From positions 48,948 to 112,947 of the forward strand of contig JAFSYI010000022.1 of the NCBI GenBank assembly GCA_017450065.1: DNA of 64,000 nt. The letters are read 5' to 3'. The notes beneath the pieces are model-generated. The model did no database searches and was not told the DNA's origin. It saw only the letters and a program-made list of their open reading frames with translations. Positions 54,608-59,758 of the stretch are shown piece after piece; the first letter of the stretch is position 1, and each line of letters begins with the position of its first letter. This stretch comes from Lachnospiraceae bacterium (GTDB taxonomy: Bacteria > Bacillota > Clostridia > Lachnospirales > Lachnospiraceae). The position numbers and the translations under genes are program-made.

Positions 54608-55375
54608 CTATAATCGGTTGTGTTCCAGGTAATCTTCCAGCGATCTTATCAGGTCTTCTCCGTCAAGATTGAAAAATATCTTATTGAAACATCCAGCTAT
54701 CATCGGATTAAGATCCATGTCGGCTTCTATCGATCTTGCATCGCTTTTAAACCCGTAACATCTTTTACCGTTTGCATAAGCAATACCAAGCTCAATACAG
54801 GCTCCTTCATCAGGAATCCTGCCATCCAGCAGCATGAATACTATATCCGACTTAAGAACTTCTTCTTTATCTTTTTGAAAAATGATCTTTATCTTCTCTT
54901 CTTCGGTTTTACCTTCAAGGTCGGGAGCAAGGAAACCGTCGCGTTGAGGAAGGAACACTTCATAACCATAACTTTCAAGGATATTAACTATTTTCAGGTT
55001 ATATTCTCTTTCAGCTTCGTTAAAAAGAGGTGCGGCATAATATATCCTATTGCCCGAAACCGCCTCGGCTGCTTTTTCTTCTCCTGTTCCAAAATCTGCA
55101 CGATTATTCTCATCGGAACTATCGAATACACCGAAGTTGTTGACTGTATCTGAGCTGTCGGCCGCATCAGAGTTGTCGGCTATATCGGGACTATCGGTTG
55201 CACCGGAGCTGTCGGTTGCATCAGAGTTGTTGGCTGCATCGGTTATGCCGGTTATAGCCTGATCAGCAGTATTGTTATGGTTTATGTTTATATTACATCC
55301 GGACAGAGTCAATGAAATGGTTGCAATTAATAAGAGGACAGTTCTCATTCTGTTTTTCTTTTTGAATATGTACAT
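54608..55375 (-). CDS. Lipoprotein with a nucleoside 2-deoxyribosyltransferase domain
   Basis: About 255 residues. A signal peptide ends in LLLIATISLTLSGCNI, the lipobox Cys. Next is a 75-residue low-complexity linker rich in Asp, Ser, Asn and Ala. From about residue 108 comes a nucleoside 2-deoxyribosyltransferase fold: IYYAAPLFNEAEREYN, GYEVFLPQRDGF, SDIVFMLLDGRIPDEGACIELGIAYANGKRCYGF. Here Asp of LLDG and Glu of CIELG match the substrate and catalytic residues. Family members are normally cytoplasmic nucleoside-salvage enzymes; export as a lipoprotein is odd. The ATG at 55375 has GGAG 7 nt upstream; the ATG at 55405 has none. Confidence 0.82.
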   Translation of the reverse strand: MYIFKKKNRMRTVLLLIATISLTLSGCNININHNNTADQAITGITDAANNSDATDSSGATDSPDIADNSDAADSSDTVNNFGVFDSSDENNRADFGTGEEKAAEAVSGNRIYYAAPLFNEAEREYNLKIVNILESYGYEVFLPQRDGFLAPDLEGKTEEEKIKIIFQKDKEEVLKSDIVFMLLDGRIPDEGACIELGIAYANGKRCYGFKSDARSIEADMDLNPMIAGCFNKIFFNLDGEDLIRSLEDYLEHNRL

Positions 55376-55419
55376 GTTATTTCTCCTTTTTTCTTCTTTT
55401 TTCATTTTTTTCTTATTTT

Positions 55420-55521: not shown

Positions 55522-57336
55522 TCATCCGTTATTCTTTTTCACAGCAGAGCCTTTGCCGGTCAGCCGGATCGTCGTATCATTCATCCCCAGCGATAGATTA
55601 TACTGAATATCCGATGCTATGCTTTGAAGAACCACCACATTATCGAAATCATAGGCAAGCGCTTCATCCCGCACCAGTGGATTGAAGCCGATACCCATGT
55701 CCCTTATGGATATTTCAATGTCTTTATCTTTTTCCCGCAATATCACATCGATAACATTCTCCCGGTTGTTATTTGCCATGGCGATCCCGGTCAGCATTTC
55801 CTCAAGTGCCAGACAGGTGATCACAGCAGTATGATGGTCTGTTTTTTCTTCAATATACTGCGAAACTTCTCTCGCCTTTTCCACGATTTCCGAAACATCC
55901 ATCCTGACGGAAAATCCGTATATCCTGCGGTCATCGTTTTTCGGGAGCAGGAAGATACGTTCCCCAAAGGCACGGCTTCTGAACCTGTCAATCCGCAGAT
56001 GCGTCAGGACAAGCAGTACAGGTACAGCCTCGGATACGATCAGAGCCGTCCAGATCCCGTTCATTTTAAAATGCGGTGCCAAAAGGGATGCCAGACATAC
56101 CGGAAGGATGAGTCCTTCAAGTATCGTCAATCCGGTCGACAGCTTCTGCGCCTTGATAGCCTGAAAATAATAATTCATTAACAATATAAAAGCTATTCCC
56201 GGAAAAGTCAGAGTATAAATCCTGATACAACGGCTCAAATAATCCACTGCCTGCGGATCATTGACGCCATACAGCCACAGTATCGGATGAGGGAACAAAA
56301 CAAAGAACAGCCCCATGATCACCGAAGCAACAAGAATATATAGTATAGAGCGTTTCAAAATATAACGGACCCTGTCATAATCCCCGCCATGGGCAAGCAC
56401 AGCGGCTATCGGCGACAGCGTCTGCGCAATACCCAGGAAAAAAACATAACAGAGGTTAACATCATTTCTGCAGATGGCAAAGGCCTGAAGATCAACGTGC
56501 TCGCAATATGTAAGGATCAGGCTGTTCAACAGATCAACACATATCATAAGGTAAAGCCATACAGAGGCTGTGGAAAAACCACTGATACAGATATCCCGTA
56601 TATCACAGAAAAATGTTCTGAAACCGGATGCAAACGGCCAGACAAACCGAAGCTGCCGTTTGGGGTTGTTTATATAACCGGCAAGCAAAAAGATAACGCC
56701 GCAAAGATATCCGATTATGGTGGCCGCTGCCGCCCCTTCCAACCCCATTTTGCATAATTTCATCAGTACGCAGTCCATAAACAGATTCACTGCATTGGAG
56801 ATCAGCATGGCATTTGACGTCAGCTTCGGAAAGCCATCCGTCTGTATAAAACGGGAAAGACAAATGAGCAGACAAAAAAAGGGAAAACCAAGGATCATTA
56901 CGGAATAATAAGTTCCTGTATCCTTCCGCAAAGAAGGGTCACTGCAAAGCAGCGGAACAATATACGATCGTAACATCGTCCCCAAAAAAGCCGTAGAAAC
57001 ACCAAGCATCACAATGAACGTCATTGCAGCGGAAAACACCCTGTTCCCTTTATTTCTGTCATGCTCCGCATATGCATTGGCGGCTATCAGACTTCCTCCA
57101 ATCCCGACCATCCCATGAAAAAGGCTTATGAAACACACAACCGGAAAACAGAGATTTACGGCAGGCATCCGCTCCACGCCCAGGAAAGTACTTACAAGAA
57201 CGGAATCCACGAAGGTGGTCAGATACTTTGCCATGGCGATCATCAGCACAGGAAAAAAGAATTCCCGATACTTATCTGTTATGAGACGATAATCTATCCC
57301 GTTCTCATTTGTATGCTTTAAATCGGTAATCGACAT
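55522..57336 (-). CDS. MATE-family exporter fused to a GHKL/RsbW-type ATPase domain
   Basis: About 604 residues. Residues 1-450 form a MATE transporter with 12 helices (SVLVSTFLGVERMPAVNLCFPV; GFPFFCLLICLSRFIQTDGFPKLT). From about 475 a soluble domain follows: VSQYIEEKTDHHTAVITCLALEEMLTG is the N-box region and ISIRDMGIGFNPL the G1 box of HATPase_c proteins such as the anti-sigma kinase RsbW. MATE pumps normally end without such a domain. The ATG at 57336 has AGGA 8 nt upstream and lies inside the last codons of the AMP-binding gene (19-bp overlap), so the two are translated together. Confidence 0.85.
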   Translation of the reverse strand: MSITDLKHTNENGIDYRLITDKYREFFFPVLMIAMAKYLTTFVDSVLVSTFLGVERMPAVNLCFPVVCFISLFHGMVGIGGSLIAANAYAEHDRNKGNRVFSAAMTFIVMLGVSTAFLGTMLRSYIVPLLCSDPSLRKDTGTYYSVMILGFPFFCLLICLSRFIQTDGFPKLTSNAMLISNAVNLFMDCVLMKLCKMGLEGAAAATIIGYLCGVIFLLAGYINNPKRQLRFVWPFASGFRTFFCDIRDICISGFSTASVWLYLMICVDLLNSLILTYCEHVDLQAFAICRNDVNLCYVFFLGIAQTLSPIAAVLAHGGDYDRVRYILKRSILYILVASVIMGLFFVLFPHPILWLYGVNDPQAVDYLSRCIRIYTLTFPGIAFILLMNYYFQAIKAQKLSTGLTILEGLILPVCLASLLAPHFKMNGIWTALIVSEAVPVLLVLTHLRIDRFRSRAFGERIFLLPKNDDRRIYGFSVRMDVSEIVEKAREVSQYIEEKTDHHTAVITCLALEEMLTGIAMANNNRENVIDVILREKDKDIEISIRDMGIGFNPLVRDEALAYDFDNVVVLQSIASDIQYNLSLGMNDTTIRLTGKGSAVKKNNG

Positions 57337-59606
57337 GGAACGGATCCTTTCCCACAGTGCTTCCCGGAAAAGCATACTGCCCTGCGTTTTACTTCTTCGA
57401 GCATCTCATCCGAAAAAATACCGGGCATAGTAACAGAAGCCAGGCAGATCCTGGCGGCATGGACTCCAATGATACATTCTTTGATCATTGAGATCTCTGC
57501 GGCGTTCTTTTCAGGATAATATATGTCAAGGAAACGGTCGTACAGATCCATTGCCTCCTTTTTAGTCAGTCCCGATCTTGCTTTGTATTCCCCTTCGCTG
57601 ATAAAGGACGGGAGAAATACATAATGGGCATACATTCCGATAAGATCAAAGACCGCGTGCCCTTTTTCGGCAAATGTCAGATCGAAGAATTTAATACCCC
57701 TATCGCATAACATGGCATTACCCGGATGGCAGTCGCCATGGGTAAATGTGCCGGCATCGGGAATACATTCAAATATTCTACGTATCTGCTTTCTCTCTTC
57801 ATCCGTACAGAAGCTTTTGTCAAACCGCTCGCATATCCTGATGGAATTTTCTTTTGCATCCTCCAGATCTGTACCCGAACAATCAACCTGATGAAGTGCT
57901 TTTACCGCTCCGGCAAACAGATCGATCAGTAAAAATCTCTCTTCGGGCCGTTCACGGATCATCTCTTCAAGATTTGTACCTGAGAGTTTTTCCATCAGGA
58001 TTCCATACCCTTCATCAGACCGCGTAATGTCATAGACCTCAGGCACGGGAAGTCCGCAAATATGCGCAATATGGGTCCGGGTCAGTTCATCCCATACCGT
58101 CCCGTAAGGAATTGAAGCAGCAAACTGCTTCAATACAATACCATCACCCATATCATAGACGGACGATGTTCTGCCCTTGCCGACAACAGGCAGTTCGGCT
58201 GCGGCCGACTTTTTGAAACGATCCCAGTTTCCCTCCGGGGGCAGGAGGCTCAGCTTATCAACTTTACCTGATCCCAGAACGGAAAAATCTTTGAGACGGA
58301 TATAATTAGTCGGTATCATATATTCCGGAAGTTCCCCGAGAAGAGCTTCATGCAGGGAAACCGGATCAACGATATGATGATCGGAATAGAATGCAACTAT
58401 CGATGAAATGTCCCTGAAAACAAATCCTCTTACCACTACGCCGGAAATGCCGCTGACTTTTCTCACAGCATTGGCAACTTCATCCGGTTCGATACGACAG
58501 CCTCTGATCTTGAACATCTCATCTAAGCGTCCGAGGATAAGCATATTTCCTTCGGCATCGGTCTTTCCGGCATCTCCCGTATGAAACAGACCTTCCCCCT
58601 GTCTTCTCAATTGGTGGATATATCCGCGGACATAGGGTGTTCTGAAACAGACCTCTCCGATCTCCCCGGGAAGAACCTCCGTTTCATCCTCATCAACAAT
58701 GAGCACTTCCACATCCGAATAGGATTTTCCCACGGGTGCAGGAGTCACGGCCTCTGACAACTCATAAACAGTAAGCAGACATCCCCCTTCCGTGGAAGCA
58801 TATGTGTTGTAACACTTCATTCCATTAACAAACAGTCCGTCGGCCGGTTCGGCCGAGAGAATGCACATATGCCAGGGAGCATGAAACGGCTGCATTTTTC
58901 GTAAAAAAGTAGGCGTAATATATCCGCAATTGACCCCGGCCCTATCAATATAGTCATAAAAACTTTCCCTGCTTTGGGAATATTCATAAGGCATCACGGC
59001 CGTTGCACAGCCATGTCCGCATAAATATGCAAAGATGATAGGCATTGCCACAAAATTCATGGGACTCATTGAGAGGAAAATATCGCCTTCATGCATGATA
59101 GCACTTCCGTCCACCATAACCGCCCGCCATGCATTGTCTAATGAACCGTATTCATGCATAACGCCTTTAGGATGACCTGTTGTCCCGCTGGTATAGGAGA
59201 TATAACACAGACTATGGAGCCTGACCGGCTCATAACCTTCAAGGGGACGACAGCTGAGTATTTCCGGCAGACAGCTTTCGTCCACAAACAGCCGGCAGTC
59301 TGAATCCTTCCGGATAAAGGCAGTCCTTTCGGGGTCATTTTGTGTCTCCGTCAAAACAAAAGCGGCACCGGCACGCATAGTCCCTGCCATACACGCATAA
59401 AGCATCAGACCCCGCGGCAGACAATACATAACTACATCCTCTGCACCGATACCCTTTACTTTCAGCCATGCGTAGATTTTTCCGGAAAGCTGCCAAAGCT
59501 CTTTGAAAGTAAGCCTCTCCCCGGGTTCAAAAATGACTGCACAATTGTCCGGTGTTTTATTTACGAATTCTTCCAATCTCTCCAGCGCAGTGTTTAGTCT
59601 TCCCAT
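57318..59606 (-). CDS. Adenylation (AMP-binding) domain fused to an APH-like kinase
   Basis: 762 residues. Residues 1-465 are an ANL-superfamily adenylation domain: YISYTSGTTGHPKGVMHE (A3), TYASTEGG (A5), FHTGDAGKTDAEGN (A7), FKIRGCRIEPDEV (A8) and GSGKVDKLSL (A10 Lys). Residues about 475-740 are an aminoglycoside-phosphotransferase-like kinase with FTHGDCHPGNAML (catalytic Asp and Asn) and FFDLTFAEKGH. All key residues seem present in both parts. That kinase resembles the TIGR02172 paralogues first noted in Fibrobacter. No carrier-protein domain is attached. It overlaps the MATE-ATPase gene, so an activated product that is exported is a fair guess. Confidence 0.85.
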   Translation of the reverse strand: MGRLNTALERLEEFVNKTPDNCAVIFEPGERLTFKELWQLSGKIYAWLKVKGIGAEDVVMYCLPRGLMLYACMAGTMRAGAAFVLTETQNDPERTAFIRKDSDCRLFVDESCLPEILSCRPLEGYEPVRLHSLCYISYTSGTTGHPKGVMHEYGSLDNAWRAVMVDGSAIMHEGDIFLSMSPMNFVAMPIIFAYLCGHGCATAVMPYEYSQSRESFYDYIDRAGVNCGYITPTFLRKMQPFHAPWHMCILSAEPADGLFVNGMKCYNTYASTEGGCLLTVYELSEAVTPAPVGKSYSDVEVLIVDEDETEVLPGEIGEVCFRTPYVRGYIHQLRRQGEGLFHTGDAGKTDAEGNMLILGRLDEMFKIRGCRIEPDEVANAVRKVSGISGVVVRGFVFRDISSIVAFYSDHHIVDPVSLHEALLGELPEYMIPTNYIRLKDFSVLGSGKVDKLSLLPPEGNWDRFKKSAAAELPVVGKGRTSSVYDMGDGIVLKQFAASIPYGTVWDELTRTHIAHICGLPVPEVYDITRSDEGYGILMEKLSGTNLEEMIRERPEERFLLIDLFAGAVKALHQVDCSGTDLEDAKENSIRICERFDKSFCTDEERKQIRRIFECIPDAGTFTHGDCHPGNAMLCDRGIKFFDLTFAEKGHAVFDLIGMYAHYVFLPSFISEGEYKARSGLTKKEAMDLYDRFLDIYYPEKNAAEISMIKECIIGVHAARICLASVTMPGIFSDEMLEEVKRRAVCFSGKHCGKGSVPCRLPI

Positions 59607-59758
59607 TTTGTTAATTCTACTCGTACCGGATTACTCATAGATGCTCATCTTTTACCGGTTCTGATGAAATCAATCAGTTCCTCTATATCATTATAGTCGC
59701 CCATTCAGATTCTTATCAATACCGCATCTGCGAACTTCACAACAATTTATTCACATTT
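59607..59758 (-). other. Leader region of the adenylation-kinase gene
   Basis: About 145 nt of leader between the putative promoter and the start at 59606. It holds a 19-codon frame (59645-59704, MGDYNDIEELIDFIRTGKR) with an in-frame stop directly before its ATG and no ribosome site. It looks like the eroded end of a helical protein rather than a gene. Nothing else is seen in the gap up to 59917 besides the promoter. Confidence 0.35.

Follow-up and report, generated by a model that had tools for sequence, protein, structure and literature searches.

Each domain of the two-gene system described here is of a known kind. The genes, one joining an adenylation (A) domain to an APH-type kinase (A-APH) and the other joining a MATE exporter to a GHKL/RsbW-like domain (MATE-HATPase), lie in a 64,000-nucleotide stretch of Lachnospiraceae DNA, hereafter the window (G000:C82:48948-112947), from a draft assembly of 100 contigs that is 88% complete. 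Designations beginning with G, C and L denote genomes, contigs and loci. The best solved relative of the exporter in profile searches is the MATE exporter BH2163 (5c6o), of the DinF type. Its transmembrane region aligns with the window exporter at E 3.4e-30, and the window protein has an extra C-terminal GHKL-like domain of about 120 amino acids (aa). This tail is related to the anti-sigma kinases RsbW and SpoIIAB (6m36 and 1th8) via standalone RsbW-like proteins and has the G1 box in common with them, direct profile matches being weak. It differs from them in being fused to an exporter and, in the window clade, in missing the N-box Asn and the G2 Gly. SLC26/SulP transporters possess a C-terminal STAS domain and are likewise transporters bearing one half of a partner-switching pair; they bear the STAS half, whereas the window exporter, which belongs to a different transporter family, bears the RsbW-like half.

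On the enzyme side, the window A domain falls in the same group (support 100/98) as the starter A domains of nonribosomal peptide synthetases (NRPSs; L046, L047, L048, L133 and L145) and the A domains of A-T-C proteins of the genus (T, carrier; C, condensation). The starter domains and A-APH share an A4 motif without Asp (FVA, FAI or FNA) and the A10 lysine, whereas the NRPS and A-T-C proteins carry further NRPS domains and A-APH carries an APH kinase instead. ComG (8agy), the corramycin phosphotransferase, is likewise an APH-type kinase inside a biosynthetic unit; unlike A-APH, it is a 366-aa kinase chain with a known peptide substrate and no A-domain fusion. Neither MATE-HATPase fusions nor an A-APH protein were found described in the open-access (PMC) titles and abstract openings listed by the searches, and the passages covered of a rumen cluster survey mention NRPS 55 times and transporter and SpoIIE 0 times (PMC8241843). 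The combination of these domains and its link to partner switching were not met in the literature searched.

A conserved pair of fusion genes

Pfam and profile comparison confirmed the two fusion genes of the preliminary description. They lie on the minus strand in the order A-APH, MATE-HATPase, with the following features.

57318..59606, minus strand: A-APH gene, 762 aa, adenylation domain joined to an APH-type kinase in one frame
58233..59606, minus strand: ANL adenylation domain, aa 1-458 (PF00501); best solved relative LgrA (6mfz)
59046..59057, minus strand: A4 motif NFVA, with Val186 at the Asp235-equivalent position (alignment to LgrA and 30 other A domains)
58254..58274, minus strand: A10 motif GSGKVDK, with catalytic Lys448
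57321..58226, minus strand: APH-type kinase domain, aa 461-762 (PF01636)
57717..57740, minus strand: catalytic loop HGDCHPGN of the kinase, aa 623-630
57318..57336, minus strand: gene overlap, 19 bp with the second exporter ATG (57336), 58 bp with the first (57375)
55522..57375, minus strand: MATE-HATPase gene, 617 aa, or 604 aa with the second ATG as start
55996..57288, minus strand: MATE exporter domain, about aa 30-460 (MatE); closest solved relative BH2163
55558..55920, minus strand: GHKL/RsbW-like domain, about aa 486-606, degenerate
55786..55803, minus strand: N-box EEMLTG, Asn replaced by Gly
55684..55704, minus strand: G1 box RDMGIGF, kept

The overlap of 19 bp noted earlier holds if the second ATG, which is preceded by a Shine-Dalgarno-like AAAGGA, is the start, and not if the first is. 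Because the genes overlap, they are probably co-transcribed.

Scanning the species-genome collection for the exporter by pattern, an approach that detects close relatives only, gave 10 related loci. In 4/4 other loci with an exporter at least 69% identical and with upstream sequence on the contig (L030-L033), a full-length A-APH gene lies directly upstream; the contigs of L036 and L039 start within the exporter coding sequence and are uninformative in this respect. DNA matches of three contigs (L031, L032 and L033; 69-72% identity) are confined to about 55555-59607, and the flanks are partly common to L030 alone. Because homology in these three contigs spans both genes and nothing else, the two genes form one unit. 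The dN/dS ratio was 0.05-0.27 in 12 of 16 domain comparisons, the other four (A and APH against L031 and L032) being saturated at synonymous sites. In a search of 145 relatives, with at most seven candidates scored in each at E 1e-60 or better, A-APH was full-length only in G000 and G023. The A domain alone was matched in nine other genomes at 33-39% identity; eight of these frames are A-T-C proteins by our own profiles (Pfam on one), and the ninth (G036) is cut by the contig.

Other genes precede some of the more distant exporters: a carboxylesterase in L037, an aminotransferase cut by the contig end in L038, and in L034 a GH3_C-like stretch joined to a class I/II aminotransferase. Upstream in L035 only 145 codons are present; L037 and L038 have an exporter frame that is disrupted close to its end. 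The L034 gene (L034:2008-3678, plus strand) overlaps MATE-HATPase by 4 bp and has no GH3 catalytic part; no full GH3 enzyme was found directly upstream there.

A CPBP protease had been proposed to act with the pair in processing or immunity. It had no phmmer match in L030-L033 (open reading frames, ORFs, of at least 100 aa), and only short stretches of its region align in L030 in the DNA comparison; it is not conserved with the pair, and we do not count it as part of the unit. Two further features flank the genes.

59690..59719, minus strand: promoter-like site TTGATA-18-TATAAT, upstream of A-APH
54608-55405, minus strand: nucleoside 2-deoxyribosyltransferase-like protein, downstream of the pair

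The promoter-like site is weak evidence because such sites occur at chance level in the region (16 found, against a mean of 14.1 in shuffles). The nucleoside 2-deoxyribosyltransferase-like protein begins like a lipoprotein (by eye) and contains an Asp/Ser-rich stretch, and among six loci compared its region is partly common to L030 only.

The adenylation and kinase domains

The PF00501 model matches A-APH over aa 11-327 (4.6e-48; 164.4 bits against a cut-off of 29.9), and the A3 P-loop TSGTTGHPKG and the A10 lysine in GSGKVDK are both present, as in ANL enzymes. Motifs A3 to A10 had all been called intact; A3, A7, A8 and A10 are, whereas A4 reads NFVA and A5 reads NTYASTE, not NxYGPTE. The A4 residue equivalent to Asp235 (PheA numbering), at which the alpha-amino group is bound, was located by motif and by alignment to LgrA. 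It is Val186 in the window and also Val in L031 and L033, not the Asp of an alpha-amino-acid-activating A domain, and NFVA is present in 5/5 aligned A-APH proteins. Mapping onto the PheA positions by motif gives the provisional ten-letter code VAITLATCLK.

The A-domain alignment had 31 rows, comprising the window and the full-length A domains of 16 chosen proteins, with partial domains, L030 and L032 left out. In the resulting tree, the window A domain is placed inside a group of 12 with the support given above, in which three A-APH proteins on a long branch are joined by four A-T-C proteins and by the first A domain of each of five NRPSs. The Asp235 equivalent is absent from all 12 (Val, Ala or Asn instead) and present in the other 18 NRPS A domains and in the lone A domain of L009. 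Beside MATE-HATPases, the first NRPS A domain of L135 has Asp and is an exception to the starter pattern; the L142 and L146 NRPSs have a condensation domain first, and the fetched stretch of L119 leaves the start of its NRPS frame open. Because of the A4 motif without Asp and the tree grouping, we read the A domain as probably activating an acid without an alpha-amino group.

Pfam matched no carrier domain in the A-APH protein, and neither carrier nor condensation domains were found in the window ORFs (one T-domain query on ORFs of at least 60 aa, and one C profile), which agrees with the earlier statement that a carrier protein is missing. A-APH is not an NRPS module, in which carrier and condensation domains accompany the A domain. 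Given the absent carrier domain, direct acyl transfer to an acceptor would be the simplest reading; a carrier may also be supplied in trans.

The second domain of A-APH matches PF01636 over aa 475-664 (2.7e-17; 63.8 bits against a cut-off of 23.2). The HGDxHPxN motif, reported as intact, and a later Asp are both kept. The reported likeness to TIGR02172 is real at 72.2 bits, but membership of that family is ruled out because the NCBIfam cut-off is 228.2; the kinase resembles the family without belonging to it. The domain likely phosphorylates a small molecule. Its relatives are fused to STAS domains in L009, L118, L143 and L203, to an HD domain in L010 and to STAS together with an RsbW-like domain in L204; the family is joined to STAS and HD domains in the window host and to STAS in other genomes.

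Two of these loci can be described further. In L204, a 487-aa protein (L204:3295, plus strand) contains STAS, APH kinase and RsbW-like domains, as judged by our own profiles, and follows SpoIIE and MATE-HATPase genes. On contig C52 of the window's own genome, a STAS-APH kinase gene, a gene of 262 aa and one for a lone, Asp235-bearing A domain run in one direction (L009:7972-11398), preceded by a gene that is presumably tyrosyl-tRNA synthetase-like.

The exporter family, its tail and its neighbours

The exporter matches PF01554 (MatE) in two stretches (1.2e-25; 90.5 bits against a cut-off of 24.9). On the tail alone, HATPase_c_2 reached 8e-4 and 19.8 bits, under the Pfam cut-off of 27.4. Profile comparison related ten fused tails to standalone RsbW-like proteins (98.6%, E 1e-15), the window-clade tails alone giving only 66.8% and E 5e-5. 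The ten-tail profile had weak matches to VraS, DesK, SpoIIAB and RsbW chains (E 0.0008-0.16), and the window-clade tail profile alone had no PDB match up to E 1. By these comparisons, the tail is GHKL-like and related to the RsbW-like family.

Active GHKL kinases and ATPases are marked by the N-box Asn and by the G1 and G2 boxes. In the window tail the G1 box is kept, but the N-box of its clade reads EEMLTG (EEILTG in L034 and L035), and the G2 region has Asn in place of Gly. Because the N-box Asn and G2 Gly are lost, the domain is probably not a working kinase, and the pump's regulatory ATPase of the preliminary description is not supported as a working one in this copy. In the fused proteins as a whole, the N-box Asn is kept in 37/57 and the G2 Gly in 42/57, with three (L046, L047b and L048b) keeping the Asn without the Gly.

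The preliminary description knew of no described system with this pair. A profile of nine diverse MATE-HATPase fusions (alignment A3, not to be confused with the A3 motif) had matches at E 1e-90 or better in 39/397 genomes of the family Lachnospiraceae and in 24/391 genomes of the class Clostridia, 19 of the latter outside the family; fusions may have been missed because scoring was limited to the three best first-look candidates of each genome. Some matches reach only model positions to about 543 (G048; G512 and G546; one of two in G687 and in G728), and our own profiles found no HATPase domain in four annotated matches ending there. In the window's genus, 30/37 genomes match at 1e-60, a cut-off that also admits some plain MATEs. 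The MATE-HATPase family is common in Clostridia, and these matches rule out a unique fusion.

In a tree of 57 fusions and four plain MATEs, built by a quick method and carrying a long-branch warning, the window exporter lies inside a group of 24 rows (SH-aLRT 95). A ligase-type gene directly adjoins 20 of these 24 exporters: an NRPS or A-like gene in 10 (L142, L145, L135, L138, L133, L119, L150, L046, L047b and L048b), an ATP-grasp gene in five (L112b, L114, L117, L120 and L132; identified by Pfam on L114, L117 and L132, and by homology for L112 and L120) and A-APH in five (the window and L030-L033). The 20 rows are not 20 independent events, because many are near relatives. No ligase-type gene adjoins in L034, L035, L136 and L139. 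The N-box Asn is present in all 11 NRPS/A-labelled copies of the group and in L139; the other 12 (beside A-APH or ATP-grasp, or in L034/L035) have all lost it, a pattern that may be due to descent and not to function.

In another exporter group, GH3 and SpoIIE genes occur near L047a, L048a, L141 and L149, with a lone RsbW-like gene near all of these except L141. An ATP-grasp gene adjoins the exporter in L141 and L149, and a Mur-ligase-like gene in L144. When the fused loci's own sequences were used as queries, ATP-grasp was matched in 1/59 plain-MATE controls, weakly and in a frame of about 1090 aa in L213; this comparison is descriptive, because the neighbours were first spotted at fused loci and then sought in controls. 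Such a variety of ATP-dependent carboxylate ligases beside one exporter family is as expected if the exporter goes with a product class (amides, peptides) and not with one pathway. Many members of the family, above all in the genus, have no ligase neighbour.

For the neighbourhood counts, 20 fused loci were fetched from the genus and another 20 from 17 genomes of the family, all from the upper part of the score lists, and neighbours within 9 kb were called with our own profiles. Adenylate-forming genes comprised A and GH3 genes and the A-like A477, which scores under the Pfam AMP-binding cut-off. The 59 plain-MATE controls were drawn from the best rows of score-ranked lists; the matched family set consisted of 20 plain MATEs, taken from 12 of the 17 genomes of the family sample. 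In the family sample, an adenylate-forming gene was found near 11/20 fusions and 0/20 plain MATEs (Fisher p 1.5e-4), and a SpoIIE, STAS or lone RsbW-like gene near 12/20 and 0/20 (Fisher p 4.5e-5). The APH kinase was found near 3/20 and 0/20, which is not significant (Fisher p 0.23). Among the mainly same-genus controls (20 loci, 19 in the genus), the counts of adenylate-forming, partner-switching and APH genes were 0/20, 3/20 and 0/20, and among controls from G147 and G383 they were each 0/19, giving 0/39 for adenylate-forming genes across these two further sets. The genus sample had an APH kinase near 1/20 fused loci. In 18 further loci from the class search (about 1.5 kb per side, some of the same family, with no control set), nine had STAS or SpoIIE and six had an A-like, GH3 or condensation gene. 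The family sample thus shows the neighbour links clearly, whereas the genus sample does not show them.

Other arrangements of transporters with related domains were also seen. L050 encodes a 547-aa protein (L050:7168-8811, minus strand) with an RsbW-like domain N-terminal to an SDF (sodium:dicarboxylate) symporter, adjoining an A-T-C protein; HATPase_c_2 gave 18.1 bits for this domain, under cut-off, and RsbW-like/transporter fusions may thus extend beyond MATE. In L155:10378 and L158:10284, a plain MATE gene neighbours standalone RsbW-like and STAS genes, oriented away from it and starting about 90 bp off; this may be the exporter/partner-switching link in unfused form. L196, L197, L199 and L200 have MATE genes of 558-578 aa, with a C-terminal extension unrecognised by our HATPase profiles, beside a 469-aa condensation-domain frame that is cut by the locus end.

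Proposed function and competing explanations

We propose that the pair is an operon that makes and secretes a small acyl conjugate, an explanation that we regard as evenly balanced between right and wrong in the steps given here. The A domain would turn a carboxylic acid without an alpha-amino group into an acyl-AMP and, as no carrier domain is present, hand the acyl group directly to an acceptor amine or alcohol. The fused kinase would phosphorylate the acceptor or the product, which might also hold the product inactive inside the cell, and the MATE domain would export it. The RsbW-like tail, its catalytic boxes lost, would most likely be a docking or control surface for STAS-type partners encoded elsewhere in the genome. 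The pathway of activation, phosphorylation and export outlined earlier is partly supported, by the conserved pairing and the family-level link to carboxylate-activating enzymes, but without the working ATPase or the CPBP protease.

Several observations weigh against this proposal. Although A-APH accompanies the exporter in every informative locus at or above 69% identity, exporter relatives at about 50% identity are without it and have other upstream genes instead. The kinase may not act on the product, because the STAS-APH fusions of L009, L118, L143 and L203 are of signalling type. Searches of the window yielded no gene for a STAS, SpoIIE or carrier protein. In the genus sample, adenylate-forming genes were near 1/20 fusions and 0/20 controls (the count rises to 5/20 only with adjacent ATP-grasp genes included), and partner-switching genes near 1/20 and 3/20. 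The neighbourhood profiles are home-made; the family sample is not neutral, because it was ranked by the A3 profile, which was built partly from NRPS-adjacent rows, and one of its 11 adenylate-forming calls (L136) is a 155-aa A fragment.

A complete partner-switching module consists of an RsbW-like kinase, a STAS antagonist and a SpoIIE phosphatase. None was found in the window, and all three components are present in the related loci L048, L140 and L149. One serine, presumably the phosphorylated residue, is kept in 11/11 aligned STAS domains (nine near MATE-HATPases or in STAS-APH proteins, two near plain MATEs), in the context SSAG in most rows, SSSG in L142 and ASSG in L145. Because the host genome has six STAS and eight SpoIIE matches outside the window, partners in trans exist. 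Its contig C53 carries, at about 51000-67500, a frame of 3450 aa that has several A-domain matches and is flanked on both sides by SpoIIE genes.

These genes bear on a different explanation, in which the pair is a signalling module: the APH and RsbW-like domains would act in a STAS/SpoIIE partner-switching circuit, and the A domain would make or sense the signal. STAS-APH genes adjoin MATE-HATPases in L143 and L203 and lie one gene apart in L118; the STAS-APH-HATPase protein of L204 occurs with SpoIIE and a MATE-HATPase, and the 12/20 against 0/20 of the family sample points the same way. We nevertheless consider it unlikely, as the window domain has lost the N-box Asn and the G2 Gly, the window contains neither a STAS nor a SpoIIE match, STAS had no phmmer match in L030-L033 (SpoIIE was not searched there), and the enrichment of APH kinases near fused MATEs is not significant.

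The kinase could instead serve self-protection, inactivating a bioactive amide inside the cell while the MATE pumps the product out. The kinase-domain profile has weak matches to APH(3') and corramycin phosphotransferase chains (E 0.0014-0.0059, with APH(3') at 0.0014), and ComG of the corramycin cluster is reported to phosphorylate and inactivate the antibiotic (PMC10996006). The match to 8agy (E 0.0041) is partial, however, covering 37 residues, and the fusions of the same kinase family to STAS and HD domains in the host, and to STAS elsewhere, are not a resistance context. Self-protection genes are also usually separate from the synthetase and not fused to it, and we doubt this explanation as much as the signalling module.

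That the A domain is an acyl-CoA or carrier-protein ligase using CoA or a carrier encoded elsewhere, with the exporter an unrelated multidrug efflux pump, is very unlikely: many MATE pumps are multidrug exporters, and NCBIfam models of that kind are listed for the exporter under their cut-offs, the NCBIfam models for acyl-CoA ligase and DltA are listed for the A domain (both under their cut-offs) and the host has large multi-A-domain frames such as that of C53, but the two functions occur together in the window and in 4/4 other informative loci, and an adenylate-forming gene lies within 9 kb of 0/59 plain-MATE controls.

Returning to the operon for an acyl conjugate, the pair is real and conserved, and it is part of something more general than first thought and less complete as a regulated pump. 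The best reading of the exporter family is that of ligase-associated exporters, many of them wired to partner switching. More tentatively, and with more doubt than we attach to the operon itself, MATE-HATPases as a whole could be pumps that secrete ligase-made small molecules under the control of partner switching: the tail would bind or phosphorylate STAS proteins, SpoIIE would reset them, and export, perhaps also synthesis via STAS-bearing kinases, would be gated. The window pair would then be a minimal version, with adenylation, phosphorylation and export compacted into two overlapping genes and the ATPase now a docking domain.

The findings point to a large set of secretion units in Clostridia of the gut and rumen that have been little explored; their exporters are easily found by sequence and adjoin very different amide-forming enzymes. 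Pairs without a carrier, with ATP-grasp or A-APH, may escape standard cluster prediction. If it is true that the RsbW-like tail controls export, partner switching would regulate a transporter directly, and not a sigma factor.

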